Assembly (NCBI GenBank): GCA_937868485.1
Contig: CALMML010000078.1
Location: 1-33,218 of the forward strand
Direction: 5' to 3'
Length of the DNA stretch: 33,218 nucleotides
Source of the DNA: an uncultured Myxococcales bacterium
Lineage (GTDB): Bacteria; Myxococcota_A; Polyangia; Palsa-1104; JAEUJZ01
The translations under genes were made by a program, and so were the position numbers. Shown in pieces: positions 1 through 22,271 of the stretch. Position 1 is the first letter of the stretch, and the number at the start of each line of letters is the position of its first letter. Under the pieces are notes generated by a model. The model searched no databases. It worked only from the letters and a program-made list of their open reading frames with translations, and was not told the origin of the DNA.

Positions 1-1914
1 GCTCTTCGAGTGGTTCTCCGCCAGATCCTTGAACAGCGGGATCGCCTTATCGAAGTAGTTGTTCTCGAAGAAGATACGCGCACGACGGTACTTGATCGTC
101 GGCAGTTCCGGCGCTTCCGGCACGTACTGGATGTACGTATCGAAGGCGTCCATCATCTTCTGAATCTTTTCGGGAATCGGCTTCGGCGCGAGCTGCTCTT
201 CCTCGTTCTGCTTGTCCTTGTCCTTGTCCTTCTTCGCTGCCGCTTCGGCCTGCTTACGCGCTGCACGCTTTTCAGCGAGCGCCTTCTTGGCCTCTTCCGC
301 TGCGTCAGCACCTTCGTCGGACACGTCCAAGCAGTTCTTCCACGAGATAACCGCTGCGTACGCTGCATCCTTTAGGTACTTGCCCTTCTGATCCATCTTC
401 ACGACGTCGGTGTAGACGGGAGCCGCCTGGCAGTACCAGTCACTCGCGGACTTGTTGTCCATCGAGCCCAGCTTGAACAGCAGCTCGGCGTACCAGAAGT
501 GCATCAGGTAGCTGTCCTTTTCCTTCGGGAAGCGCCGGATGTACTCCTTGTACAGGTCGGAAGCGTTGGCGTAGGTGTCCATCACGCCGGTCTTCTGCGC
601 TTCCTTGTGCCACACCGTCGCAAGCTCGCGGAGCATACCAGCGGTGTTGTCACGGCACTCGTCGAGGGACTCCTTCTTCACGTTCTTCATCTCGGAGACC
701 TTCTCGTAGATCGCCGAGAGACGCTGGAGTTCCTTCACCGTCTCAGGCACGGCGCGTGAGCCGGTCATCGACAGCGTATTCTTCAGAATTTCCGTCTGCC
801 AGCTGCAGAGCTTGTCCGAGTTGGGGTTGAGCTTGATGAGCTCGCGGTAGACCTTGACCGAGTCGAGGAACTTACCCTGGGCGTTATAGAGGTCGGCCAG
901 GATTTCCAGCATGTTCGGCGCGAAGTCCTTGCCGTACTTCTGGAAAAATGGCCAAGCCTTCTCGGGAGTTCCCACGTTGGCGTAGGTACGAACCAAGTCC
1001 TTACGCGATTCTTTGAGAAGCTGCGGATCTCCCTTGGCTTTGCCCGGACGCGGCTTGCTGGCGAAGTCGATGACGTCGATGAACGTCGCCATCGCAGACT
1101 TAAAGTCGGTCTGGTTGTAGTACACCCAGCCCTTCTTATAGAGCGCGAAGCCGTACACCGGACTGTCTTGGTAGGCGAGAACCTTCTCGTAGAACTTCAG
1201 CGCGTTTTCGAGATCTTTGTTCTCGAAGAAGTACTCACCGAAGGACAGATACGCGTGTGGCAGGAACTGCGACTGCGGATAGTCCTTGATGAGCCGCTTG
1301 AAGAACACACGAGCCTGGTCCTCTTTCTTCACCTGCGTCAGCAGATACGCGAGGTAGAAGAGCACCTGGTCCATCTTGTTGTAGGACTGGTACTTCGGAC
1401 CGTTGGCGACCTCGAGGTACTTCTTCACGGCCTCCATCAGCCACGCTTTTTCACGCTTCTCGTAGTCCGCCTGAAGCGTCTTGAGCTGATTTTCCTTGGC
1501 CGGATCGCCCTTCTCCTTGGCGTCGAAGATCTTCTCGTCGAGATCACGCGCCTTGAAGTTGTAGTAGCTCTGCTGCTCTGCGTATAGCTCAGCCATACGG
1601 AAGAGCAGATCCGGCTTCTCTGGATCGCTGTCGCCCGTCGCATCGATAAGACGCTGGAGGACCTTGATCTGAGCGTCCGTCACCGCCTTGAGCTCGGTTC
1701 CCTTGCCAGAAAACACGTCGGAAATCGCGATATCTGGCTTCTTCTTATCGCGATCGGCCTTGGAAACCGGCTTCGTTAGCGCTGTCTGCTTGGCGTCGAC
1801 GGCTTCCTCTTTTTTCTGGATTTTCCCACTCGCGAATGCGGTTGAGAGTCCGCCCAGGACCAATGCTGCGACCAAAGGTCCACAGAGGATTCGGGATGCA
1901 GGTGCTTTAAACAT
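1..1914 (-). CDS. Exported TPR protein, GltD/AgmU-like (3' end outside window)
   Basis: The first 638 codons are present; the gene runs off the left edge with no stop. It begins with a signal peptide (about residues 1-28, hydrophobic core LVAALVLGGL, likely cut after AFA) and continues as tandem TPR-like helices rich in Tyr, Phe and Lys. Examples are LFYLAYLLTQVKKEDQARVF and ALKFYEKVLAYQDSPVYGFA near residues 190-265. A charged Lys/Glu/Ala stretch, probably coiled or disordered, lies near residues 530-585. The ATG at 1914 is the first start after an upstream gap and carries a weak AGG 6-8 nt away. It lies 139 bp behind the GltE-like gene on the same strand, so the two are probably co-transcribed. 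In Myxococcus the large periplasmic TPR protein AgmU/GltD is encoded close to the TPR lipoprotein AglT/GltE, and this pair fits that size and order. The match to the Glt system is an inference from domain type and neighbourhood. A generic periplasmic TPR scaffold is the alternative. Confidence 0.8.
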   Translation of the reverse strand, partial: MFKAPASRILCGPLVAALVLGGLSTAFASGKIQKKEEAVDAKQTALTKPVSKADRDKKKPDIAISDVFSGKGTELKAVTDAQIKVLQRLIDATGDSDPEKPDLLFRMAELYAEQQSYYNFKARDLDEKIFDAKEKGDPAKENQLKTLQADYEKREKAWLMEAVKKYLEVANGPKYQSYNKMDQVLFYLAYLLTQVKKEDQARVFFKRLIKDYPQSQFLPHAYLSFGEYFFENKDLENALKFYEKVLAYQDSPVYGFALYKKGWVYYNQTDFKSAMATFIDVIDFASKPRPGKAKGDPQLLKESRKDLVRTYANVGTPEKAWPFFQKYGKDFAPNMLEILADLYNAQGKFLDSVKVYRELIKLNPNSDKLCSWQTEILKNTLSMTGSRAVPETVKELQRLSAIYEKVSEMKNVKKESLDECRDNTAGMLRELATVWHKEAQKTGVMDTYANASDLYKEYIRRFPKEKDSYLMHFWYAELLFKLGSMDNKSASDWYCQAAPVYTDVVKMDQKGKYLKDAAYAAVISWKNCLDVSDEGADAAEEAKKALAEKRAARKQAEAAAKKDKDKDKQNEEEQLAPKPIPEKIQKMMDAFDTYIQYVPEAPELPTIKYRRARIFFENNYFDKAIPLFKDLAENHSKS

Positions 1915-7419: not shown

Positions 7420-7908
7420 TTACTGACAGGTGCTGTAGGCCGACAGTGCGACGGTGACGGGCGGATCGGAATACTCGAGGCTGGTCTTGGCGAGCGCTTC
7501 GCCGAGATAGGGCACGCACTTGCGCGCCGAGGTTCCTGGCTTCTGAATCGCTTCGACGTGGACCACAACCTGTCCAGACGGCAGCTCCGCCATCGAATAG
7601 CGATCGAGCCCACAGACGACGTTGCTCCACACCGCCAGCACCGCCTGATCGCTCGGTCGCAACAGATAGACATCCATCGAGCCGATGCCCATCGCCGCGC
7701 AGCGCGACTCGGTCAAGGTGAGTCCGCTCTGCGTCCAGCGAATCGCCAGCTTGTTCTGTCCCGGTCCTGACGAGGCTCCGTTGGGTCCTTCGCTGTGCCA
7801 GCCCGGATCGCAGCCGCCAAGAAGAAGCGGCACGACCACAAAGCCCCAAAGAAGTCGTCGCAGGGTTGGCTTTTGAGTGGTTTGGTTCGTGATAGAGTGC
7901 GCGCGCAT
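7420..7908 (-). CDS. Lipoprotein of unknown function
   Basis: 162 aa. Two adjacent ATG codons occur (7911 and 7908). GGAGG (complement of 7914-7918) lies 5 nt before the second and only 2 nt before the first, so 7908 is preferred. The signal peptide has a 20-residue polar N-region, the core LLWGFVVVPLLL and the lipobox LLGGC (Cys33), followed by Asp at +2, which signals inner-membrane retention in E. coli. The mature part is about 130 aa, probably beta-rich, with Cys residues near SRCAAMG, NVVCGLD, RKCVPYL and the C-terminal STCQ; disulfides are likely. I recognise no family. Its start region overlaps that of the divergent adaptor gene, so its promoter would have to lie inside that gene. Confidence 0.75.
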   Translation of the reverse strand: MRAHSITNQTTQKPTLRRLLWGFVVVPLLLGGCDPGWHSEGPNGASSGPGQNKLAIRWTQSGLTLTESRCAAMGIGSMDVYLLRPSDQAVLAVWSNVVCGLDRYSMAELPSGQVVVHVEAIQKPGTSARKCVPYLGEALAKTSLEYSDPPVTVALSAYSTCQ

Positions 7909-7909
7909 C

Positions 7910-9106
7910 ATGACCTCCGTGGCCAAGCCGTCTCGCCTCGCAAAGTGGGTTGGGCGAGTCGTTTTCATCCTAGCACTCATCGTCGCTGTCGTGGTGGCGC
8001 GTCGGATGTGGCCAGAGCGGCCGCTTACGATTCGAGCCGCCTCGGTGCAGGTCGGAACCGTTCGTGATGTGGTCTCGTCATCGACGGCAGGTGAAGTCGC
8101 ACCAGAGACCCACGCGACGCTGCGCGCAGAGCTAGGCGGTCAAGTGATTGCCGTCGCCAAAAAGCGCGGAGAGCGGGCCAAAAAGGGTGAGCTTCTGGTG
8201 CGCGTCGATCCCAGCGATCTGGACGTCAAGCTCCGTCAGGCAACAGCGGCGGTGGCGACGGCAGAAGCGCAGGTTCAGCAAGCGGCTGCGCGCGTCGATA
8301 CGATGAAGCGTCAGTCGGATCGAGCCCAAAAGCTGCTGCTGGGCGGTGCGGGAACGGCGCAGGTCAGCGAAGACACAGCGGCGGCGCTTCATGAAGCCAG
8401 TCGCGCGCTCCAGACGGTGCAGTCTCAGCGAGAGCAAGCGCTGGCGCAGCTTGTCGCGGCGAAGGTGGCCCGAGCAAAAGCCGACATTGTCGCGCCGTTT
8501 GATGGCCTGCTCACCGACGTACACATTCAGCTGGGAGACACGGTTCCGCCCGCTGCGCCCGTCGTCCACATCATGGATGACTCGCGACTTCACGTCGATG
8601 CAACGATCGATGAAGCGGATGTCGCACGGGTGAAGCCCGGTCAGACGGCAGAGCTTCATCTCGACGCGCTGCCGAATCGAACGATCAATGGCCGGGTGAC
8701 GAGAACCGATCCAGCGGTCAAGCGCGATCTGAAAGGTGCTCGCACGCTCACCGTCGAGGTGGAAGTGAGCGATCTGGAAGCGGCTCGGGTCGCAGGACTT
8801 TTGCCCGGCATGTCAGCCAACGTCGAGATCTTGGTGGCCGAAAAAACGGGCGTGCTGTCGATTGCGTCCAACCTGATCGTCGGACGAGGTCTCCATCGCT
8901 TTGTCTATGCGCTGGTTCCCGAAGGAAAGCATCAGCGAGTTCACAAGCGTGCCGTCGAGGTTGGCGTGTCCAACTGGGATCGCAGCGAAGTCGTCAAGGG
9001 ACTGTCCGCTGGTGAGCTGCTCGCTGCGTCGCTGAACGAAAAAGGGCTCGACGATGGCGTATTGGTCAGCATCACCAGCGTCGATGGACACAAGGATTCG
9101 CGGTGA
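7910..9106 (+). CDS. Periplasmic adaptor (membrane fusion) subunit of an ABC efflux or secretion system
   Basis: 398 aa in the MacA/HlyD/RND-adaptor fold. An N-terminal membrane helix (residues about 14-31, VVFILALIVAVVVA) anchors it in the inner membrane. A first beta-barrel/lipoyl half follows (LRAELGGQVIAVAKKRGERAKKGELLVRVD), then an alpha-helical hairpin rich in Ala/Gln (about residues 110-190). The second lipoyl half is IVAPFDGLLTDVHIQLGDTV, after which come the beta-barrel and membrane-proximal domains. Adaptors of this type bridge an inner-membrane ABC or RND pump to an outer-membrane TolC-like channel. The stop overlaps the start of the ABC ATPase gene by 4 nt, so the two are translationally coupled. 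ATG 7910 is chosen, but the ribosome site is poor (GATAGAG), and an in-frame GTG at 7919 is possible. No permease or TolC gene is beside it. Confidence 0.9.
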   Translation: MTSVAKPSRLAKWVGRVVFILALIVAVVVARRMWPERPLTIRAASVQVGTVRDVVSSSTAGEVAPETHATLRAELGGQVIAVAKKRGERAKKGELLVRVDPSDLDVKLRQATAAVATAEAQVQQAAARVDTMKRQSDRAQKLLLGGAGTAQVSEDTAAALHEASRALQTVQSQREQALAQLVAAKVARAKADIVAPFDGLLTDVHIQLGDTVPPAAPVVHIMDDSRLHVDATIDEADVARVKPGQTAELHLDALPNRTINGRVTRTDPAVKRDLKGARTLTVEVEVSDLEAARVAGLLPGMSANVEILVAEKTGVLSIASNLIVGRGLHRFVYALVPEGKHQRVHKRAVEVGVSNWDRSEVVKGLSAGELLAASLNEKGLDDGVLVSITSVDGHKDSR

Positions 9107-9900
9107 GCGTGTCGGAGCCTGCGCTGCCAAAAGCGCCGCGACCGACCGAGCTGTCGCCAAGCCACGATCCGGTGATCGAAATTCAGGGGCTGACGCGGCA
9201 CTTTGTGCTCGGTGATGAGCTGGTGGAAGCGCTGCGTGGCGTCGATCTAACGATTCATCGCGGCGAGTATGTCGCGATCGTCGGACCGTCGGGATCGGGC
9301 AAGTCGACGCTGATGAACCTGCTCGGCTGTCTGGATACTCCGACGGGTGGACGGTACTGGCTCGATGGCATTGAAGTGCAGTCGCTCGATGATGATGAGC
9401 TGGCGGAAAGTCGCAATCGCAAGATCGGCTTCGTGTTCCAGAGCTTCAACCTGCTGCCGCGTGCCACGGCGGTCGAAAATGTGGCGCTGCCGATGCTGTA
9501 TGCCGGTGCGAGTCGTGCCTCGCGCAAGCAGGCGGCGATCGAGGCACTGGAGCGCGTCGGTCTGGGCGGACGGCTGTATCACCGTCCTGAGCAGCTCTCC
9601 GGTGGTCAGCGTCAGCGCGTCGCGATTGCGCGGGCGCTGGTGAACCGTCCGGCAGTGCTGCTGGCCGACGAGCCCACCGGCAACTTGGATCAGCGAACCG
9701 GCGCAGAGATCATCGCGCTGTTCGAGCGGCTTCACCACGAAGGTGTGACGGTCATCTTGGTGACACACGATCACGGGCTGGCAGAACGCACCGATCGGCA
9801 GATCCTGATCGTCGACGGAAAAGTCGCGCGGGATACCGGATCGGTGACTGAGCGCGCTAGGTCGCTGGAATCGAAACCGTCAGAAGCAGCTCCGGCTTGA
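9103..9900 (+). CDS. ABC transporter ATP-binding protein (MacB/LolD/FtsE group)
   Basis: 265 aa. Walker A GPSGSGKS (61-68), Q-loop Gln113, signature LSGGQ (165-169), Walker B VLLADE (185-190), D-loop GNLDQ and switch His222 are all intact. The pattern TLMNLLGCLDTPTGG plus a DDELAESRNRKIGFVFQSFNLLP-like region places it in the MacB/LolD class that powers type VII ABC mechanotransmission. It starts with GTG overlapping the adaptor stop, so it should act with that adaptor. In most such operons a MacB-like permease gene follows or is fused to the ATPase; here the ORF ends about 230 residues after the first domain residue and the next gene is on the other strand. The permease must be elsewhere or lost. 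The N-terminal 20 residues are Pro/Ser-rich and extra. Confidence 0.93.
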   Translation: MSVSEPALPKAPRPTELSPSHDPVIEIQGLTRHFVLGDELVEALRGVDLTIHRGEYVAIVGPSGSGKSTLMNLLGCLDTPTGGRYWLDGIEVQSLDDDELAESRNRKIGFVFQSFNLLPRATAVENVALPMLYAGASRASRKQAAIEALERVGLGGRLYHRPEQLSGGQRQRVAIARALVNRPAVLLADEPTGNLDQRTGAEIIALFERLHHEGVTVILVTHDHGLAERTDRQILIVDGKVARDTGSVTERARSLESKPSEAAPA

Positions 9901-10664: not shown

Positions 10665-10739
10665 GTGGGGTTACGACGAGCGCATCCATGTCTTCCACCG
10701 ATACCCCTGCGGATCAGAACAGTAATCAGCGGCCTGTGA
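10665..10739 (+). CDS. Possible 24-codon leader ORF overlapping the TPR gene start
   Basis: A GTG at 10665 is preceded by AAGGAG (10650-10655, 9 nt away), the only good ribosome site in this leader. It opens a 24-codon frame ending at TGA 10737-10739, past the ATG at 10688 in another frame. The large gene itself has no strong ribosome site. Translation of this short frame could modulate the downstream start. It may equally be chance. Confidence 0.25.
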   Translation: MGLRRAHPCLPPIPLRIRTVISGL

Positions 10740-13700
10740 GCCGTGCCTTCGAGTCGGACACCACGTCGAGTGCAGCCGAGGCGGTGATTGCCGCGCTCGA
10801 TGATGCCGATGTCGCCCTCGATCCGGGCGATGTAACCGTTGATTCCGACGACGATGCGGTCACGATGCTGCCGGACAGTGGCTCGGACGCCATTGAAATC
10901 CTGGACGCAGAGCCGCTCAGCGCCACAGAAAATCACCTGGCGGGAACGATTGATCCGGTGGATCTGCTCAAGCGTCGGGCGCGCAACGAAAGCACGCGCG
11001 ATCGTCTGACGGCCATCGAAAGGCAGCTTCGCGACGAAACAGAGCAGCCGGTGTCGGCAGCGCTCCAGCACGAGATCGCGGCGCTGACCGAGCAGACTTC
11101 CGAGGGAGAAACCGACGCAGCCCATGGCTACGCAGCGGCGCTCAAGCTGGATGCGGCACTTCGTCCCAACCTGTGGGCGCTGCGACGGATTTATTACCGA
11201 CGCGGAATGTGGCCAAGCCTGCTGCGGCTGCTCGACATTGAAGCGGACTCTGCGACGAGTGCGCGAGAGCGAGCCGAGCTGCTGACCGAAAAAGGTCACA
11301 TCCTGGAAGATCGTCTGAGCGACGTCGATGGGGCAATGTCCTGTTATCGCGCCGCACACGAGCTGGATCGGGAAGCGCTGGCTCCGCTGGTGGCGCTGGA
11401 AAAAGTGCTGACGAAGCAGTCCTCTCAGTCGTCGCTGGCCGGTACAGCGGGACGACCGAGCGACGATCTTCTGGCAGTGTATCGAGCGCTGGCGACGGCA
11501 ACCAAAGATCCGGGCCGACGGGTGGCGCTGCTCATCGAGCAGGCGCGCATCGAGGAAGAGTGGAGCGAGCAAGCGGCCAAAACAGGCGGTCGTCGCGATG
11601 TCACGACGGCGCTGAACTATCTGCACGATGCGTACGATGTCGGCGTCGATCAGCTAAAGGTCATCGACGAGATTGTGCGTGTCACAGCAGCAGCAGGACG
11701 GATTCCCGACTGTCTGACCGCGCTGGAAATTCGCGCCGAAATCCTGGACATGCAGGCGGAAAACGCACCGCCGCAGCGCAAGCAGCTTCTGACGGATCAG
11801 ATCGTCGGAATTCGTCGCTGGCAGGCGCATCTTGCCAAGGATCGCGTCGGAAACCTGGAGCTGGCTTGGCAGTATCTCGACAAGGCCCAGGAAAAGTCTC
11901 CGACGGACCCGCTGCTTGGACCGGACTTGCTGTCGGTGGCAGAAGCACTTGGGCAGCCGGAAAAGCTGATTCAGCTCCTGCTCGACCGAGAGAGTGAGCT
12001 GCGGATTGTCCGCCCGGAAGATGGACCTCCGCCCGTCGGTGTGTGGCTCAAGCAAGCGGCTGCGCTGTGGCAGGCGGGACGCAATCAGGAAGCGGAACAG
12101 CTTGAAGCGAAGATCGCGGAGCTTGGTCCGTCGCACCTGATCCTGCAAGCACTGCGACAGCGACGCGCGATGCAGAAGCGAGATCTTCCGTCGCTGGCGA
12201 AGCTGCTGATCGCGGAAGCCGAGCAGGCTCAGCAAGGGCAGATCTCTCCGAGTGGAGAGAAGGTTCAAGATCTGGCCTGGGCGACGGAGTCACTGATCGC
12301 TGCGGCGGACTGCTTCGTGCAGAGCGGGGATCTGACGGCAGCCGAAGCGCTGGTGGTGCGGGCAGAGTCGCTGTTGCCAAAGCCGCTCGTCGGAGCTTCG
12401 CTGGCTCATCGACGACTGCTCGACGCGCAGCTGGAAGAAATCTACATCCGCAGCGGTCGCGAAGGACTGCTGGCCGGGCTGTTTGAGCGACGACTGACCG
12501 AAGGAAATCCGTCGGATCAAGAAGAGACGCTGATCCGAGAGAGCCTGATCGATCTGTACAGCGGAGTCTTGGCAAGTCCCGAGGCTACCAGTCGACATCA
12601 GCTCGCGCTTTCGCAGAAGACAACGACGGATCTGCGACTGATTCGCCGACAAGTTCTGTTTGCTCGTCAGCGCGGCGACGTGGCGCAGGAAGAAGCGGCG
12701 CTGCGACGCTGGATCGAAGCGAGCGCGGGACAAGGGCAGCCTCAGATTTCCGACGAGCTACGACGGTCAGAGCTGCTGGTCAAGCTGGGTCGTCTCGACG
12801 ATGCAAGCGCGCTGTACGAGCACATCCTGACCGAGCAGCCGGGACATCCGCAGGCGATCGAAGAGCTAGAGCGGATCTATCTGGCGCAGGGCAAAAAAGA
12901 CGAGCTGTCGAAGCTGCTTCAGCGTCAGATCGAGCTGGTCAGTCGCAGCAGCGGCGAAGAAAAGTCGCTGGACGCGGTGGCGGCGGAGCGAGCGCTCTAC
13001 GCGAAGCTGATCGACGTGGTGGAAAACGAGCTGAAGAAGCCCGAGCAGGCCGCGACGCTGCTAAAGACGCTGCTGACGCGCGATCCCTCGTATCTTCCGG
13101 CACTGTCGGCGCTGACTACGTATTACCGACGGGAAAATGACTCGTCGAAGCTGCAAGTGACGCTGGGTCAGGTGGCAGAGCAAGCTCCGACGAGCCTGAT
13201 TCGAGGCGAAGCGCTGCTGTCGCTGGCAGAGCTGCGCGAATCACTGGCAGCACGTCCGACGGATGTCGACGAGCTGTACGAGCAAGCGATCCAAGCGCTG
13301 CCGCTTCCCTCGGCACAGGCCACTCGGGCGGCGCTCGGACGACTGCGCGCGGTGATGCAGCAGCGCAAATACGACAAGCTTCCCGACGTGATGGAAGCGC
13401 TGGCGGACTCGCTGCCGACGGAAGATCCACTGACGGCAGAGACGGTCGCGCTGCTGATGGAAGAGCGCGCGGCACAGCTGATTGTGGCAGCGACTCCGAC
13501 GAGCAGTGCGATGGAGCGAGCGGATGCGCAGCTTGTCAAAGCACGCAAAGATCTCCGTCAGCTTCCGTCGGTGAAAAGTGAGTCGCAGGTTCAGCTTCTG
13601 ACGACGCGTGTGCTGCTGAATCAGCGACGGGAAGACGGAAAAGCGCAAGGAACGGCGCTGGCGGATCTGGCCGAGCAGCTGCTCACGCACGACGATCCGG

Positions 13701-16213
13701 GCGCGAAGGTGGTTGCGGCAGAGCTGCTGGTTCGCTCAGGACTACTCGGTGCGCTGTTCGACGACGAGCCGGGACAGCACATCGAGACGACGCGACGGCT
13801 GCTGCTGGCCTATCGGACGCTCGGAGATCAGCCGCTGGTCGTCGTGGCACTGGCGGATCTGTTGTCCGACCCGACGGTGCTCGAGCAGATGGCGCAGCTT
13901 CCCGACGTGGTGAAGGTGCTGCGCGCGCGTCAGTCGCTGTGTCCCGAGTCGGAGCGAGGCGACCGCGTGGCGTTCATCTTGCTCGAAGCGGAAGCGTTCC
14001 TGGCACAGAGCGCCGCCGATGAAGTGGATGATGTCGCTGCGGCGAAGCTGCGGCAGTCTGCGGCGGAAGCTGCGCTGCGGGCACTGGCACTGGACCCACA
14101 GTCCGTCGCTGCGCTGATGCTGCTTCGTCAAGCCACTGAGCCGAGTGACAGCGAGCTGGATCCTCTTCGCGATCAGCCACTCACTCCCGACGGAGCGGCT
14201 CGACTGCGGGCGTATGCGCTGTATACGCTGCGACTCGCATCGCTGCTCAGCGACGGAGACGCTCGAACCGATCTATACAGTGAAGCGGGACAGCTGCTGA
14301 CGCGCATCGGTGATCAAGACGGAGCGGCGGCTTCGCTGCGCACTGCTCTCGACGGAAGACCGCTGGATGACAGCATCTTCCAGCCGCTTCTTTCGCTGCT
14401 TCAGCGTCGAGCGGAACAGACGGGCGATAACGGACCGCTGCTGGAGCTGCTCGACTTCCGACTGGCTCAAGTGGCGCGAACCGACGATGAGCGACGACAA
14501 GACCTGCCGATTCGGGTGGCGCTGCTGTCTCAGCGAGCGGCGTTGCATCTTCTGACGGGACAAAACCTGATCGCGGCCAGCGATTTGGAGACGCTGCTGT
14601 CACTTCAGCCCGATCACACGCTGTCGCACAGGCGGTTGGCTGCCCTGCGTGCCCAGCACGGGGACTTGGCGGCAGCGGCGATGCACTATCGAAAGCTGCT
14701 GGAGCTGGCGACGGACGCGCAAGAGCAGCTGACGATTCATCGCAGCCTCGGAGAGCTACTGCTTGATTCGACGCCAGAGCATGCGATGGTTCACATCGCG
14801 GAGTCGCTGCGCATCGGAGCCACGCTACGCACCGAAGGCGGCCAGAGCGAGACATCCGACGAGGTTGAGCAGCGCGTTCAGCAGCAAAAGCGACTGCTCG
14901 GGCTTCAGCTTCGCAAAGGGGATCGAGAGACTGCGCTCGAAACGCTGCGGCGAATCGTCGACGAACTGCCAACGAGCAAAGATCTTTCGTCGCTGCGACA
15001 GAGTGTTCTGCTCGAAGTGGCGAGCCTGTACGAGCGAGACCTGGGCGATCGCGGCGCTGCCCTGTCGATCCTGGACAAGCTCCTGTCGGAACAGCCGCTT
15101 CAGCTGACGGCGCTGGATCGCTTGGTTCAGCTGGCGTCCCAGAGCGGAGAGACGGCACGAGCCCAAGGTGCGCTCAGTCGAGCACGCGACGAAGCTCGCA
15201 AGCAAGCCGCTGCGCTGGCGGACGTCGATTCGCCGCTTTCGGTAACGCCGTTTGCGACGCTGGCACAGGTGTTCGAGTGGCAAAAACAGAGCGTTTCGTA
15301 CAGCTTGGCCGGTCAGGCGAGCGGTCTGGTGACGCGCGCGCTCGGTGGAAGTGCCGAGCTTCCAGCACCGCCGCCCGCTCGTCAGCCAGAGCGTTCCGTC
15401 GGTCCACCGCTGCGCAGCACTGCGTTTTCGACGGACGCGCGTGGAATTTTGCTCGATATGTGGCAGGAGATCTGGGAAACCGGCACCAAGCTGCTCGGGC
15501 CGGATGTCGCGCAGCTGTCGAACAGTCCCAAAGATCGACTGAATGCGAAGAAGATTCCACCCAGCTGGATCACCGTCGACAACCTGGCGCAGCGCTTCGG
15601 GCTTGGAAACACCGATCTGACGATTGCGTACTCGCTGGTTGCGGGAAAAGAAAAAGACCTGTGCGTTTCCGTCGGGAGCACGCTGGTCTGCGGCAGTGCA
15701 TTTACCGAAAGCCTGTCGTCGTGGTCTCAGAACAACTGGTTTCGACTGATTCGTCGGCTGGCGCTGCTGCCTGATCGCTTGGGAGCAATCGAGTGCGCAC
15801 CGACGGAGCTTGTGCTGTTTTTCGCGGCGTGCTGTCAGCTGGTTTCGGTGCCAACGCCCGCGCTGTCGGGTCCAGAAAAGACCAAGCTCGACGACAAAGT
15901 CCGGGCGCTGGACCGAGCGATTGCCCGCAAAGAGCGCTCAGCGCTGCGCAACCTGGCGTCGCGCATGCAAGAGCTGTCGGGTGAAAACGGCAAGAACCTG
16001 ATCCTGGGCTGGCAGCGCGCGATCCTGCGAGGCAGTGCGACGCTGGCTCTGGCGATTACCGGCAACCTTTCGACGGCGCTGGCGGAAGCTGGCGTCAAGC
16101 TTGATACCGACGACGAACACGAAGCGAAGACGGCCCGTGCGCTGCTGTGCTGGAGCGTATCGGCGGAGCTTATCGATCTTCGTCGCGAACTCGGTTTGAT
16201 TGAGAAGGAGTGA
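10688..16213 (+). CDS. Giant TPR/alpha-solenoid protein A with conserved C-terminal domain
   Basis: 1841 aa, no signal peptide and no membrane helix, so probably cytoplasmic. The first ~95 residues are acidic and disordered (ALDPGDVTVDSDDDAVTML). From about residue 110 to 1530 it is almost wholly TPR-like helix pairs, some clear: ALRRIYYRRGMWPSLLRLLD, DDASALYEHILTEQPGHPQA and AALSILDKLLSEQPLQLTAL. A Pro/Arg linker (about 1555-1580) leads to a 260-residue C-terminal domain starting near 1580. Protein B ends in a divergent copy of this domain (shared pattern LAQRFGLGNTDL, then RLIRRLALLPDRL..., TLALAITGNLSTAL, LRRELGL). I cannot assign a biochemical function; TPR arrays usually scaffold protein complexes. 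An upstream stop at 10658-10660 and no other in-frame start fix ATG 10688. Protein B follows 4 bp later in the same operon. It could be related to AgmK-type giant TPR proteins, but I cannot verify this. Confidence 0.88.
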   Translation: MSSTDTPADQNSNQRPVSRAFESDTTSSAAEAVIAALDDADVALDPGDVTVDSDDDAVTMLPDSGSDAIEILDAEPLSATENHLAGTIDPVDLLKRRARNESTRDRLTAIERQLRDETEQPVSAALQHEIAALTEQTSEGETDAAHGYAAALKLDAALRPNLWALRRIYYRRGMWPSLLRLLDIEADSATSARERAELLTEKGHILEDRLSDVDGAMSCYRAAHELDREALAPLVALEKVLTKQSSQSSLAGTAGRPSDDLLAVYRALATATKDPGRRVALLIEQARIEEEWSEQAAKTGGRRDVTTALNYLHDAYDVGVDQLKVIDEIVRVTAAAGRIPDCLTALEIRAEILDMQAENAPPQRKQLLTDQIVGIRRWQAHLAKDRVGNLELAWQYLDKAQEKSPTDPLLGPDLLSVAEALGQPEKLIQLLLDRESELRIVRPEDGPPPVGVWLKQAAALWQAGRNQEAEQLEAKIAELGPSHLILQALRQRRAMQKRDLPSLAKLLIAEAEQAQQGQISPSGEKVQDLAWATESLIAAADCFVQSGDLTAAEALVVRAESLLPKPLVGASLAHRRLLDAQLEEIYIRSGREGLLAGLFERRLTEGNPSDQEETLIRESLIDLYSGVLASPEATSRHQLALSQKTTTDLRLIRRQVLFARQRGDVAQEEAALRRWIEASAGQGQPQISDELRRSELLVKLGRLDDASALYEHILTEQPGHPQAIEELERIYLAQGKKDELSKLLQRQIELVSRSSGEEKSLDAVAAERALYAKLIDVVENELKKPEQAATLLKTLLTRDPSYLPALSALTTYYRRENDSSKLQVTLGQVAEQAPTSLIRGEALLSLAELRESLAARPTDVDELYEQAIQALPLPSAQATRAALGRLRAVMQQRKYDKLPDVMEALADSLPTEDPLTAETVALLMEERAAQLIVAATPTSSAMERADAQLVKARKDLRQLPSVKSESQVQLLTTRVLLNQRREDGKAQGTALADLAEQLLTHDDPGAKVVAAELLVRSGLLGALFDDEPGQHIETTRRLLLAYRTLGDQPLVVVALADLLSDPTVLEQMAQLPDVVKVLRARQSLCPESERGDRVAFILLEAEAFLAQSAADEVDDVAAAKLRQSAAEAALRALALDPQSVAALMLLRQATEPSDSELDPLRDQPLTPDGAARLRAYALYTLRLASLLSDGDARTDLYSEAGQLLTRIGDQDGAAASLRTALDGRPLDDSIFQPLLSLLQRRAEQTGDNGPLLELLDFRLAQVARTDDERRQDLPIRVALLSQRAALHLLTGQNLIAASDLETLLSLQPDHTLSHRRLAALRAQHGDLAAAAMHYRKLLELATDAQEQLTIHRSLGELLLDSTPEHAMVHIAESLRIGATLRTEGGQSETSDEVEQRVQQQKRLLGLQLRKGDRETALETLRRIVDELPTSKDLSSLRQSVLLEVASLYERDLGDRGAALSILDKLLSEQPLQLTALDRLVQLASQSGETARAQGALSRARDEARKQAAALADVDSPLSVTPFATLAQVFEWQKQSVSYSLAGQASGLVTRALGGSAELPAPPPARQPERSVGPPLRSTAFSTDARGILLDMWQEIWETGTKLLGPDVAQLSNSPKDRLNAKKIPPSWITVDNLAQRFGLGNTDLTIAYSLVAGKEKDLCVSVGSTLVCGSAFTESLSSWSQNNWFRLIRRLALLPDRLGAIECAPTELVLFFAACCQLVSVPTPALSGPEKTKLDDKVRALDRAIARKERSALRNLASRMQELSGENGKNLILGWQRAILRGSATLALAITGNLSTALAEAGVKLDTDDEHEAKTARALLCWSVSAELIDLRRELGLIEKE
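16205..16210 (+). promoter_or_regulatory. Ribosome site that decides the start of giant TPR protein B
   Basis: AAGGAG inside the last codons of protein A lies 7 nt before GTG 16218. It rules out the upstream in-frame TTG at 16200, which would precede the site, and implies translational coupling across the stop at 16211-16213. Confidence 0.8.
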
Positions 16214-16217
16214 AGAC

Positions 16218-19200
16218 GTGCCTCCGGCTGATCAAGACAGCAAGAAGCCTGCACCGACTGACTCGCTGCTCAGCGACTTTGACTTTGGCGACGAGGACTT
16301 CAACTGGGATCAGGCTTCTGACAGCCCGAACCCGATGTTTAACTCCGAAGACGAGCTGCCGCCGGAGCTGCGCAGAGCCGTGGTTCCCCCGCAGGCCGCC
16401 GCATCGTCTTTGGCTGCCACGAAAGCACCCGAGCCGGTTTCCGTAGAGCCCGCGCCAGGGAGTGCGATCGCGTCCCCAGCCAGTGCGCAGCCAGCCGCTC
16501 CGTCGAGCACACGAACCGTCGATCCGCTCGCGCTCCCGCCGGTAGAAGGAGACGCAGCGCCGCTGCCACCGCTCCTTGCGGGTGGTCTGCTCGACGACTT
16601 GGACTTGGATCTGCCTGCGCCTCCGTCGCCGTCAAATCCAGGCGTGTCGAAGGGTGACAGCAAGCCGGTCACGGTAAAATCCGCCGTCGCTGAATCCTCG
16701 GTCGGTGAGCTGTCGGATCTGGCACTGCCGGTTCCGTCGCCGCTCGCAGCGGTTCAAGCAGCACCGACGAGCAAAGCGGCATCGAGTGCGCCTGCTCCGT
16801 CAGAGTCTTCAGCGCCCGCCGTGAGCTTTGAAGCGGAACCGGAAGGCGAAGACGAAGAGGACGAATACGACGTTCAGATCGACGCAGCTCCGGCGGTGAG
16901 TGCAGAGCCCGCGCAGGCTGCAAAGTCGGCCCAAAGCGACGCATCTCTGACGGACTTGGTTCCAGGCTTTGGGGTCACAGCGGGACTGGATCACGCGCCC
17001 AGCACGAATCCGCTCGCTGAGCGATCGGTCGAGTTTTCGCTGCCACCGCCTCCGTCGCTGCCGCTGGTTCAACCGACGCCGATTCACAGGTCCGGCGAAG
17101 TCGCAAAGCTACAGCCGAGCGATCGTCCGCTTCCGACGGCAGAGCCGCTGCCGCCACCGCCCGCGTCATCGATTGAGCCGGTTTCCGTCGAGCCACCGAT
17201 CAAGCCGACGCTGGAACGACTGGCCGAGCTGCCGCCGATTCAGCCGAGCGCGTCGCCGCAGCCGATGCGCAACCTGGGCACGCCGATTGTGCCGCGTCGT
17301 CTGCCCTTGCCAAGCCTGGAGAGCCTGCCACCGCCTCCGCCGTGTGCGACGGGTCCGGCTGGTCTGGAGACAGCTGCGCGACGGATGGCACTGCATCTTC
17401 TCGACGCAGAAGCCGCCAGTACGAGCAGCGAGCGAAGTCGTGCGGTGGCGCTGCTGCTGGCCGCAGCCAGTCATGCCGAAGCGCTGCGCGAGTCGTCGGA
17501 AGCCATCGATCGCTATCGTCGCGCACTGGAGCTGGTTCCGACCAACCGAACGGCGCTGCGTGGTCTGCGTCGCCTGCTGCAAGCACCGGGACCGATGGCA
17601 CAGCCCGATGAAGCGGCGCAGCTTATCGAACAAGAGCACGCGCAGAGCAGCATCAGTGAGCAACCGGGCCTGCGGCTGCACCGCATCGAGCTATTGCGAG
17701 CAAGTGGGCAGCTGGGTGAGGCAAAGCAGCTCTCACAGGCGTTTTTGGCCGAAATTCCGCGTGGAACGCACCGAATTGGGCAGAGCGTCGCGCTGCTTGC
17801 GCTCAGTGATGTCGCGCTGGCACAAGGTGAAACGGCGGAGCTTACCGCGACGCTCGATGGCGTGCTGGCACTGCCGACGCTGGCGGGACCGCTGCGTCCG
17901 GCGCTCCAGGTTCATCGGGCTCGGCTCGACGAGCCATCGGGACGCGATCAAGCCACGATGCAGCGCTACGAAGCGTCGCTGAGCCAGAAACCCACGCTGT
18001 CTGCGGGTCTGGGACTGCTGCGAACGGCGTGTCGCGTGCCCAGACTGCGCAAGGAAGAGCCTACGCCGCTTGCCAAGGCCGCCAAAGCGGTTGCGGGTCT
18101 TACAGTGCCTGTCGCACTGAAAACGGCGCTGTGGAGCCTTGTGGCGCAAAAATCCAGCGATGCAGACGAGCTGGCGGCGCTCACCGAAGCGGCGAAGCTG
18201 GGCGATGGCAGCGCGTGTGATGCGCTGGCACTGCGGGCGGAACAAGCGCAGGACTTCGCAAGCGCAGCGACGCTGCATCAGCAAGCGGCGGAGCACAAAA
18301 AAGATCCGTGGCAGCGCAGTGAAGCGCTCAAGCGGGCGGGTCAAGCGTGGCTGCGAGCGGACAAGGACGAAGCGGCGCAACAAGCGCTGGTGCAGTCGCT
18401 GTCTGTCGGATCGACCACCGATGTGCCGGTCGATGCGATGGCGAGTCGACTGCTGTCGCGGGCCTGTCAGAAGCTCGGTCGTCCGTCGGATTTGCTGAAG
18501 CTGTGGCAGAACCTCGGGCAGTCGTCGGACGGTCAGGGTGCGTATGCGCTGCTGTATGCGGCAGAGCTACAGCTGACCCAGCAGCCGGGCGACGAAGGCC
18601 GACGGCTGGCGATGGTCGAGCTGCAAAACGCGCTCAAGGTGCGACCGGACTTTTACGAAGCAGCGCAGCGACTGTCGACGCTGCTGCTCGCGAGTGGCGC
18701 GCCGAAAGATGCGGCGCAGGTGCTGCTGGCGGCGACGCAGAAAGCGGCAGAGGCTGTGGCGACGGAGGTGTGTCGTCGCGTGCTTCGCGAGGAAGCGGCG
18801 GCGCAGCTGCTGCGGGTTGGACAGCACGAAGAAGCGGCGCGGGTGCTGCTCAGTGACTCGATGGTTCCAAGCGCGGTGTCGGATGTGGCCCCGACGCTGG
18901 CCCCCGCACGAAGCTGGCAGCTGGCCCAGCTGGCAACCCGACTGCGAGGTCTCGCGGACCCGACGCTGCTTCAGCAGCTTTCCGACGTACTTCATGCGGC
19001 GGCAGGTGTGGCGCAAGGCAGCAGTGCAGCGACGCTGTGGTTTTCGCGAGGTAGCTTGCTCTCGTCGATTCAGCCGACACCGGTACCCGAAGGAGGTCCG
19101 GTCGAAGAGAGCTTCCGTCAAGCGCTGCTGGCAGAGCCCGGTCACATTCCGGCGCTGCTCCGTCTGTCGCTGCGCGCACAGAGCACGGATCGTCAGGCGC

Positions 19201-22200
19201 TTCGTCACAGCCCGCTCAGTCGGTTTGTGACGTCAGGGCTGCGCACGCAGTTTGAACGCAACCAAGGAAAGCCGTCGCAGCCGCTGTGGGGAACGCTGCT
19301 GGCGCTGTCGGAAGAGCTGGATGCGGATGAGCCGACGCTGGCGCTCAAGACGTATCGCGAGCTGCGCAAGTGGGCGGACACGCTGCCGAGCCTGCTCGGG
19401 CTGGACGACTGGATTTATGTGACGGCGTGGCGCGCGGGTCAGGGACTGGATCTCGTCGAGCGCGAGCTGTCGCAAAATCCCGACTCGGATACACGCTATG
19501 CGCTGCTGCTGCTGGCGGGTGAGCAGCTGGAAGCCCAAGGAAAAGCGAAAGCAGCGACGGAACGATATCAGCAAGCGCTGGAGCTGCGTCCCGGTCATCC
19601 GGTGGCCAAGCAGAAGCTGGTGCAGGCGTATCTGGCGGCGGGAATGCTCGACGAGCTATCGCGGCACACCGTCGCAGAGCTAAAAGACGCGCCGGAAATT
19701 TCGACGCGGGTGCAGGCCTTCGAGCGACAAGCGCTGCTCGCGAACCTTCAGATTCACGATCCAGCCGAGCGCAGCGAAGCCATTGTGGCGGCATATCGAA
19801 ACGTGCTCACCGTCGATGCCAACAATCACTTGGCGATGCGCACGCTCGAACGTCACTTCATTGCCCGAGAGCAGTGGGGCGAGCTGATTCATCTGTACGA
19901 GCAGCTTGGACTGACGGCGACGGACACACCGTTTGCGGTTCACATCAGCTCGGATCGCGCGCGCCTTCGTCAGCGACTGCTGTGGCAAGAAGGTGGCGAT
20001 CCCGAAGCGACGCACAACCAGATGGAAAACGACTTCCGTCTGGCGCTGTATCGCGATCAGACGTGTCGTCCGGCGCTGCGCTTTCTGCATGAAGGTGCGG
20101 TGCTGCGCGACGATCAAGCGCAGCTTGCCGAGCTGTCGCAGCGCGTCGGAGAGCTGTCGATCAGCAGCGGTCCGGGCGAACAGACGGCGAAGCTGGGATC
20201 GGCGATCTTCCTGACGAGAGCAGCCGAAGCAGCGGCCTCCAGCGGTGGCGATCCCGAGCAGGTGATTTCGCTGTACAAAGCGGCGCTCGCTCGCGTTCCG
20301 GGACTGTATCCGACGCTGCGCGGGCTGCTGCACCACTCGCTGCTGCACCTGCGCTATTCGGTCGCGCTCGCAGCGGCGGAACAGCTGGCGGAAACGCTGT
20401 ACGACACCGACGAGCGCTATCTGCACTACATGCTGGCGGGTGTGCTGGCACAGAACCTGGTTCCCGACGTGGTGCGCTCTCGCAAAGCGCTGCGTCGAGG
20501 ACTTGCGCTTCAGCCGGATCGCGAAGAAGCGTTTGAGCGGCTCCGTCTGTCGTATGGCACCACGAGCAGCACCAGCGTCGAAGATGCCCGCGCGCTGGCC
20601 GAGCTTATCAAAGACCGTCTGCGTCGAACCGATCTGTCGGAAGCGCGAATCGTTGGGCTGCGCGTCGAGCTGGGTCAGCTGTACGCAGGACCGCTACAAA
20701 ATCGTGCGCACGCCAAGTACGAGCTGGGCGAAGCACTGCGTCTACAGCCCAATCAAGCGGCGGCGCTGTACTGTCTGGGCAAGCTTCACGCCGACGACGG
20801 AGAGTGGCAGCACGCAATCGATCCGCTCCGTCGCTATGCACAGATCGAAAAGCGTCCGACGCAGATCCTGGCTGTGCAGCTTCTCCTCGGAGAGATCTTC
20901 AGCGAGCAGATTCACGATCCGCAGCAAGCGATTGCCGCGTACACCAAGGTTGTGCAGATTCAGCCGACGAATCAGACCGCGCTCACCAAGCTGGCGGATC
21001 TGTTCCTGTCGCAGAATCGTCCCGGTGAGACGCTGCCGCTGCTCAAGCGACTGGTCAAGTACACCGAGGACAAGCAGCGCAAGATTGGCTACTACCATCG
21101 CATTGCGGCGCTGTCGGAGCTGTCGGCGGACTCGCGTGGGGCGCTCGAAGCGCTGCGCTCGGCGGTGGAAGTCGATCCGCTCGATCTGTCAGCCATTCGC
21201 GAGCTGGGACGCTATTACGAGCGAACGAGCGATGTGCAGTCGCTGCGCTTCCATCTCGACGCAGCAGCGGGTCGGTTCCGTCCGCAGCTTCAGGGCAAGC
21301 CTCGGGACGCGACGGTGCATCAAGCACTGCTGGCCATCTTGACGATGCGACGCAGCGAGCAAGCGCACCTCGCAGCGGGCGCGATCACCGCGTTTGGCGG
21401 CGTCGTGCCCAAAGACCTTCAGACGCAGCTCGAAAAGACGCTGGCACGCAAAGAACCGACGAAAACGGGACTGCGCGATCCGGCGCTTGATGATGTGCTG
21501 TATCCGTCGGTGGTTTCGTCGAGCATTCGGACGCTGTTCAAGCTACTGGCGGAGCCGCTTGGCAAGCTGTATGTCAGCGACGGACGAAAGCTTCAGACGC
21601 TCGGGGTCGATCGCAAAGAACGGCTGCCTCGGTCGGGACATCCGGTGCGCGATCTGGCCAACAAGCTGGCGGCGGATCTCGGCGTCGGTGAGTTCGACAT
21701 CTATCTGACGGCAGCGCAGAGCAAAAACGAAGCCGGTCAGTCGGTGCCGTACTACACCATCGAGCCGCTGGAGCCACCTGCGCTGATCATCTCGAGCGTG
21801 CTCATCGACGGAGCGTCCGAAGCAGAGCGACGGTTCCTGCTCGGAGGACTGCTCAAGATCCTGCACAGTCAGCTGCACTTGCCGCTGCGCTTGTCGTCGG
21901 AAGATCTGGCGGTGCTGTTCGGCGGTCTGGTTCGTCAGCAAGTCAAAGACTATGTGCCGATTGGCTTTACCGATAAGCGGATCGAAGCCGAAGCCGTGCG
22001 TCAGCGACGAGCGATTCCCAGCAAGCTGACCTCTCAGCTGGTGACGCTGTCGATGGAGTTCTACGCAGCGGTGCCAAACTACGACGGCATCGCATCGGCT
22101 CTGACGATGAGCAGCCACTTCTTCGGCCTTCTGTGGTGCGGTAGCGTACCGGCTGCGGTGTCGGCGCTGCGTCGCAAAGGTCCGTCGGCAGAAGCACAGA

Positions 22201-22271
22201 TCGATGAACTGCTGCGCTTTGCCTTCAGTCGAGAAGCCGACGAAATCCTGCGCATCCTCAGTGGCTCGTAG
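16218..22271 (+). CDS. Giant TPR/alpha-solenoid protein B with Pro-rich N-terminus
   Basis: 2017 aa from a GTG start with a strong ribosome site, 4 bp after protein A. Residues 1-380 are disordered and rich in Pro, Ala, Ser and acidic residues. This region opens with an acidic/aromatic patch (DFDFGDEDFNWDQ, about 21-33) and contains three LPPPP tracts near residues 275, 311 and 370. TPR-like repeats fill about 380-1740. The clearest are ALYCLGKLHADDGEWQHAID, AIAAYTKVVQIQPTNQTALT and ATERYQQALELRPGHPVAKQ. The last ~260 residues (from about 1755) form a domain related to the end of protein A, with LAADLGVGEFDIYLT, ERRFLLGGLLKILHSQLHLP, FFGLLWCGSVPAAVSALRR and LLRFAFSREADEI. No signal peptide or membrane segment is present. 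Function is unknown. The operon arrangement and the shared domain suggest A and B act together, perhaps as a heteromeric scaffold; this is inference. No catalytic motif is seen. Confidence 0.88.
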   Translation: MPPADQDSKKPAPTDSLLSDFDFGDEDFNWDQASDSPNPMFNSEDELPPELRRAVVPPQAAASSLAATKAPEPVSVEPAPGSAIASPASAQPAAPSSTRTVDPLALPPVEGDAAPLPPLLAGGLLDDLDLDLPAPPSPSNPGVSKGDSKPVTVKSAVAESSVGELSDLALPVPSPLAAVQAAPTSKAASSAPAPSESSAPAVSFEAEPEGEDEEDEYDVQIDAAPAVSAEPAQAAKSAQSDASLTDLVPGFGVTAGLDHAPSTNPLAERSVEFSLPPPPSLPLVQPTPIHRSGEVAKLQPSDRPLPTAEPLPPPPASSIEPVSVEPPIKPTLERLAELPPIQPSASPQPMRNLGTPIVPRRLPLPSLESLPPPPPCATGPAGLETAARRMALHLLDAEAASTSSERSRAVALLLAAASHAEALRESSEAIDRYRRALELVPTNRTALRGLRRLLQAPGPMAQPDEAAQLIEQEHAQSSISEQPGLRLHRIELLRASGQLGEAKQLSQAFLAEIPRGTHRIGQSVALLALSDVALAQGETAELTATLDGVLALPTLAGPLRPALQVHRARLDEPSGRDQATMQRYEASLSQKPTLSAGLGLLRTACRVPRLRKEEPTPLAKAAKAVAGLTVPVALKTALWSLVAQKSSDADELAALTEAAKLGDGSACDALALRAEQAQDFASAATLHQQAAEHKKDPWQRSEALKRAGQAWLRADKDEAAQQALVQSLSVGSTTDVPVDAMASRLLSRACQKLGRPSDLLKLWQNLGQSSDGQGAYALLYAAELQLTQQPGDEGRRLAMVELQNALKVRPDFYEAAQRLSTLLLASGAPKDAAQVLLAATQKAAEAVATEVCRRVLREEAAAQLLRVGQHEEAARVLLSDSMVPSAVSDVAPTLAPARSWQLAQLATRLRGLADPTLLQQLSDVLHAAAGVAQGSSAATLWFSRGSLLSSIQPTPVPEGGPVEESFRQALLAEPGHIPALLRLSLRAQSTDRQALRHSPLSRFVTSGLRTQFERNQGKPSQPLWGTLLALSEELDADEPTLALKTYRELRKWADTLPSLLGLDDWIYVTAWRAGQGLDLVERELSQNPDSDTRYALLLLAGEQLEAQGKAKAATERYQQALELRPGHPVAKQKLVQAYLAAGMLDELSRHTVAELKDAPEISTRVQAFERQALLANLQIHDPAERSEAIVAAYRNVLTVDANNHLAMRTLERHFIAREQWGELIHLYEQLGLTATDTPFAVHISSDRARLRQRLLWQEGGDPEATHNQMENDFRLALYRDQTCRPALRFLHEGAVLRDDQAQLAELSQRVGELSISSGPGEQTAKLGSAIFLTRAAEAAASSGGDPEQVISLYKAALARVPGLYPTLRGLLHHSLLHLRYSVALAAAEQLAETLYDTDERYLHYMLAGVLAQNLVPDVVRSRKALRRGLALQPDREEAFERLRLSYGTTSSTSVEDARALAELIKDRLRRTDLSEARIVGLRVELGQLYAGPLQNRAHAKYELGEALRLQPNQAAALYCLGKLHADDGEWQHAIDPLRRYAQIEKRPTQILAVQLLLGEIFSEQIHDPQQAIAAYTKVVQIQPTNQTALTKLADLFLSQNRPGETLPLLKRLVKYTEDKQRKIGYYHRIAALSELSADSRGALEALRSAVEVDPLDLSAIRELGRYYERTSDVQSLRFHLDAAAGRFRPQLQGKPRDATVHQALLAILTMRRSEQAHLAAGAITAFGGVVPKDLQTQLEKTLARKEPTKTGLRDPALDDVLYPSVVSSSIRTLFKLLAEPLGKLYVSDGRKLQTLGVDRKERLPRSGHPVRDLANKLAADLGVGEFDIYLTAAQSKNEAGQSVPYYTIEPLEPPALIISSVLIDGASEAERRFLLGGLLKILHSQLHLPLRLSSEDLAVLFGGLVRQQVKDYVPIGFTDKRIEAEAVRQRRAIPSKLTSQLVTLSMEFYAAVPNYDGIASALTMSSHFFGLLWCGSVPAAVSALRRKGPSAEAQIDELLRFAFSREADEILRILSGS

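Follow-up and report, generated by a model that had tools for sequence, protein, structure and literature searches.

The best described relative of the genes analysed here is GltI (AgmK, MXAN_4863) of Myxococcus xanthus, a cytoplasmic TPR scaffold of the Agl-Glt gliding machinery. It is a TPR protein of 4132 aa whose gene group is confined to the Myxococcales and occurs at times in multiple copies (PMC3169522). In a 2026 review, GltI is described as a large scaffold which, together with GltG, links AglQ to MreB (PMC13104615). The two giant TPR proteins encoded by the pair described below, called A and B, are likewise devoid of a detectable signal peptide, and proteins in the GltI position of several genomes carry the same C-terminal domain as A and B. 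However, the glt cluster encodes GltI as a single chain of 3.3-4.1 kaa, whereas A and B are separate products of 1.8-2.0 kaa each, from genes predicted to make up an operon of their own.

Two other groups of proteins are relevant for comparison. SgmX (MXAN_5766) is, like A and B, a cytoplasmic myxobacterial TPR protein without an enzymatic domain, and it acts as an effector of MglA-GTP and has 14 TPRs; unlike A and B, it is 1060 aa long and is described as consisting of TPRs only (PMC7668184), with no pseudo-M48 tail reported. The SgmX operon (MXAN_5766-63) was considered as a counterpart of A-B and dropped, because published papers give its synteny with a TamAB-type operon. The M48 metallopeptidases (BepA, Ste24/ZMPSTE24 and HtpX) resemble the C-terminal tails of A and B in a profile similarity extending over about 185 columns and in a weak similarity of fold, and BepA, like A and B, combines an M48 domain with TPRs. 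In contrast to these enzymes, the tails lack all zinc ligands and the catalytic Glu, and they are C-terminal and apparently cytoplasmic.

Organisation of genes A and B

The window, i.e., the whole stretch of 33,218 nucleotides that was analysed, contains two adjacent genes located on the same strand:

10688..16213, + strand: gene A, ATG start, 1841 aa, member of the 'first gene' clade
16205..16210, + strand: AAGGAG, identified from the sequence as the putative ribosome-binding site of B, inside the 3' end of A
16214-16217: gap of 4 bp between A and B
16218..22271, + strand: gene B, GTG start, 2017 aa, member of the 'second gene' clade

These ORF coordinates agree with the sequence-only reading of the window, which had reported neighbouring genes of 1841 and 2017 codons, 4 bp apart, and an AAGGAG motif within the first of them. 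The motif is separated from the GTG codon of B by 7 nt, and an in-frame TTG codon is also present at position 16200. From their signals, A and B are predicted to be one operon with translational coupling.

The Pfam annotation of both proteins showed TPR_14, TPR_19, TPR_11 and other models above the cut-off and left the C-termini without a match, while the NCBIfam models that were found were generic TPR models only, far under the cut-off. No credible transmembrane segment or signal peptide was detected in A or B. To determine the extent of the TPRs, ortholog alignments were divided into segments of 200 residues, and the profiles of these were compared with known TPR stretches; for B, a crude count of TPR motifs did not exceed that in shuffled sequences, and the profile comparison was used in its place. 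The resulting layout of the proteins is as follows:

Protein A: leader, about residues 1-120; TPR-like solenoid, about 121-1520; C-terminal pseudo-M48 domain
Protein B: leader, residues 1-360; TPR-like solenoid, about 361-1760; C-terminal pseudo-M48 domain

The TPR signal of A is weak around residues 840-1160. The earlier description of both proteins as nearly all TPR-like is appropriate for the solenoids, but it does not extend to residues 1-360 of B, a Pro/Ala/Ser-rich and weakly conserved leader that is probably disordered.

Upstream of the pair, at positions 7877-9900 of the window, an operon contains two overlapping genes, one for a membrane fusion protein of the HlyD type and one for an ABC ATPase, and the same arrangement was found in the congeneric genome G002. 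No permease gene follows this operon and none was found in the window.

The C-terminal domain and its relation to M48 peptidases

Both proteins end with a tail of about 265 residues:

15404..16204, + strand: C-terminal domain of A, residues about 1573-1839, profile match 7e-67
21477..22265, + strand: C-terminal domain of B, residues about 1754-2015, profile match 4.9e-78

The similarity of the two tails is invisible in pairwise comparison, as BLAST gave an E-value of 0.9 and the single-sequence hhalign was equally uninformative. The comparison of order-level profiles, which were built independently for A and B with the bridging sequences left out, aligned 248 columns with a probability of 99.2, an E-value of 1.1e-19 and 18% identity. 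Moreover, iterative profile searches seeded with A alone or with B alone reached one common family. Relatives of each tail were found in a search of 38 related genomes, and several of the weak matches of the B tail there turned out to be the A partner at the same locus. The profiles thus show the two tails to be one homologous domain, and the divergent shared C-terminus that had been noticed by eye is confirmed, including its landmark pairs, which were correct within 1-2 residues in the profile alignment.

The domain is present in 117 of 191 genomes drawn from the phylum, with at most 12 copies per genome. In every collected member, it is hosted by a giant TPR protein, and the match stops 10-22 residues before the C-terminus. 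The Pfam analysis of 55 members revealed scattered chance matches only, with no consistent family and no M48, and no PDB sequence was matched by the domain profile. A contig scan with a single GltI tail as the query matched only one named MAG, 'Myxococcota bacterium isolate SKYG55'.

The structure prediction suggested by the sequence-only reading yielded confident AlphaFold2 models for both the B tail (pLDDT 95, pTM 0.91) and the A tail (pLDDT 92, pTM 0.89), and M48 structures topped both Foldseek lists; however, the models derive mostly from one common alignment and therefore do not constitute independent evidence for a common fold. Against the PDB, the best matches of the B tail were Ste24p (E 0.13) and ZMPSTE24 (E 0.38), with BepA at ranks 5-6, and the best match of the A tail was the M48-type peptidase 3c37 (prob 0.80, E 0.14); E-values of 0.13-0.4 are not significant alone.

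When the tail profile was compared, using hhalign, with one built from 13 HExxH-containing M48 candidates of related genomes, the probability was 97.5 and the score 82.9 over about 185 columns covering the zincin core, while the best of 200 column shuffles, with gap-rich columns removed, scored 17.8. An earlier shuffle control, performed before the removal of these columns, contained 1 outlier among 132. The column mapping from hhalign showed that structural, non-catalytic M48 positions are retained in the tails and that the catalytic H, E and H have mostly given way to R, A and L, respectively, and the distal E to various residues, with L and R in the lead; replacements of the first H by G, of the E by L and of the second H by I were also seen, as in the following site of B:

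21846..21860, + strand: codons G-L-L-K-I, residues 1877-1881 of B, aligned with the M48 HExxH motif by hhalign column mapping, with no catalytic residue left

The HExxH motif is absent from all the tails analysed (0/74), in agreement with the observation that no catalytic motif could be recognised in the domain, and the third zinc ligand is lost too. Based on the profile score, the structural positions that are kept and the catalytic positions that are replaced, the tail, for which no fold had been proposed in the sequence-only reading, is best read as a catalytically dead, M48-related domain in which HExxH and the third zinc ligand are lost. That the tail is not derived from M48 and that the likeness reflects a generic alpha/beta similarity is highly unlikely: although no Foldseek match is below E 0.1, TM-scores are just 0.28-0.34 and Pfam detects M48 in 0/55 members, the profile score greatly exceeds all the shuffles (82.9 vs. 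at most 17.8), structural M48 positions are retained and M48 structures rank first for both tail models.

Phylogeny, pairing and the relation to GltI

The topology of the maximum-likelihood tree based on 74 tails showed that the 18 upstream genes of the pairs all belong to one clade (support 96/87) and the 18 downstream ones all to another (94/83), while proteins of 3.3-4 kaa, alongside some shorter single ones, form a third region; the tree has long branches and is rooted at the midpoint only. Linked pairs were found in nine families (f1, f2, f3, f5, f10, f13, f14, f15 and f17) and also in f38, which belongs to another class. Four extra A-B pairs were recognised from neighbouring ORFs, and the survey of the phylum revealed further pairs, including the one in G145, also of another class. 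Two exceptions were noted: in G009, an unrelated ORF follows A, with B on another contig, and the A and B genes of G133 likewise lie on separate contigs. Many families retain A-B as a tandem in fixed order, and the adjacency noticed in this one genome is therefore conserved across families. As judged from the tail tree, three ancient lineages, namely A, B and GltI, share one architecture.

The 3.3-4 kaa members were identified as GltI/AgmK because they occupy the position after gltC-D-E-cglF-gltG, as gltI does in M. xanthus; in these genomes, the label GltI rests on synteny (gltG, gltJ and cglF) together with size. In the congener G002, the order is gltC, a gltD-like gene, a gltE-like gene, cglF, gltG, a TPR lipoprotein gene and a gene for a giant TPR protein with the tail, and the score of cglF is above the curated cut-off. 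The same gltC-gltG-giant arrangement follows from the contig positions in G004, G029, G026 and G034. In G039, a member of 3928 aa is flanked on one side by a gltG homologue and a TPR lipoprotein gene and on the other by a gltJ homologue (NF033760 500 bits and NF033761 129 bits, both under the equivalog cut-offs). When Tgl and GltJ models were used to search for Myxococcus-like genomes, none passed the cut-offs. A single member of 1714 aa (locus L063, contig C18 of G030), found on the same contig as gltC and gltG at a distance of about 25 kb from gltG, is possibly a further paralogue tied to Glt.

A and B have the features of the GltI superfamily, i.e., they are giant TPR proteins with no signal peptide and with the shared C-terminal domain. 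However, they do not occupy the position of gltI, as about 7 kb separate them from gltC, which is on the other strand, and a separate GltI follows gltG in G002, and in the domain tree each of them falls outside the GltI lineage in a clade of its own. The pair is best placed within the GltI superfamily, as a branch of two genes whose products carry a pseudo-M48 domain not modelled before. No description of the A-B pair or of the domain was found in the open-access literature, outside which most subscription journals lie. The view of the pair as unnamed and undescribed thus holds in that no described complex was found to match it, but the family itself is known, A and B being ancient paralogues of GltI/AgmK.

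Proposed role of the pair

The reading that we prefer, with a probability of about 0.6, is that A-B would be a GltI-type two-protein cytoplasmic scaffold with the pseudo-M48 tails as non-catalytic binding modules. The association of A with B, their partners and their function are what we infer here. A and B may form a heteromeric cytoplasmic platform acting like GltI, in which the TPR solenoids would bind client proteins. The pseudo-peptidase tail may have retained the peptide-binding fold and lost the chemistry, and it could dock a peptide or an edge strand belonging either to a partner or to the other subunit. M48 proteins can bind in this way, as an edge strand of BepA is reported to contact immature LptD (PMC8423444). 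The platform would most likely serve a Glt-related machine of the envelope or surface, which is the weakest step of the proposal. A role as a scaffold, as suggested by the sequence-only reading, fits the findings.

A broader version of this proposal is tentative. According to it, A-B may be the core of a separate, undescribed Myxococcota cytoplasmic platform parallel to GltI, a scaffold of two subunits with dead-protease tails that would connect some envelope motor or polarity system with the cytoplasm, and GltI, A, B and the single paralogues would make up a platform family with up to a dozen members per genome.

No partner gene is conserved at all A-B loci. Ser/Thr kinase genes adjoin the pair in several families (loci L050, L051, L168, L174 and L176), and several of the kinases have a Cys-rich N-terminus. 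A protein of 1.3 kaa, which starts with an MJ0042 zinc ribbon and contains a long tract of TPRs, adjoins the pair in G146 and also in G145, a genome of another class:

L184:9252-13241, - strand, and L182:9547-13332, - strand: zinc-ribbon TPR proteins at the G146 and G145 loci

It is doubtful that, instead of being a structural platform, A and B function as regulatory hubs associated with neighbouring Ser/Thr kinases or with SgmX-like polarity control, with the TPRs binding a GTPase or kinase substrates and the tail sensing a peptide. Kinases flanking A-B at 7 of the 16 loci compared, some of them Cys-rich at the N-terminus, and the zinc-ribbon TPR protein beside the pair in G145 and G146 are in line with this explanation, as is the example of the TPR protein SgmX, an MglA effector in M. 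xanthus (PMC7519303). However, at the A-B loci the positions and orientations of the kinases vary, no kinase adjoins the pair in the window and no conserved GTPase neighbour was seen. Moreover, such Ser/Thr kinases are very numerous in myxobacteria.

The window also contains genes related to the glt cluster, both outside the A-B operon:

1..1914, - strand: gltD-like TPR protein, N-terminal 638 residues, cut by the contig end
2057..3787, - strand: gltC homologue, NF033756 343 bits, E 3.6e-102, under the 450-bit equivalog cut-off

The gltC homologue is located about 7 kb from A. The gltD-like protein shares 29% identity over 142-146 aa with the product of the gltD-position gene of L120; in G002 its counterpart has about 1248 aa and is located between gltC and gltE/cglF/gltG. 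The GltI of the genome carrying the analysed pair is encoded on another contig (C60). In G002, A-B and the glt cluster share one contig, with A-B and gltC about 7 kb apart in opposite orientation, and gltE, cglF, gltG, the lipoprotein gene and gltI at 130.4-153.7 kb of C55.

That A and B are regular components of the Glt gliding complex, namely an extra, split copy of GltI in the same machine, is likewise improbable. Such an explanation would account for gltC and the gltD-like gene in the window, for the gltC-G-GltI cluster at 7-30 kb in the congener and for the size of A and B together (3858 aa), which is about that of one GltI. On the other hand, the linkage of A-B and glt was seen in this genus only, and since gltC and A-B are on different contigs in G003 and G004, it may be local. 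The divergence of A and B from GltI predates the split of these families, and many genomes carry Glt genes without a detected A-B pair. Because there are families with GltC and without a match of the B tail, e.g., f6 and f9, A-B is seemingly dispensable for Glt.

Few parts of the gliding motor are as little understood as GltI, and the pseudo-M48 tail of GltI-type proteins together with the ancient A-B branch provides testable handles. The preferred reading of A-B as a GltI-type scaffold suggests that a myxobacterium may have several GltI-type cytoplasmic platforms, which would bear on the diversification of Glt-like machines.
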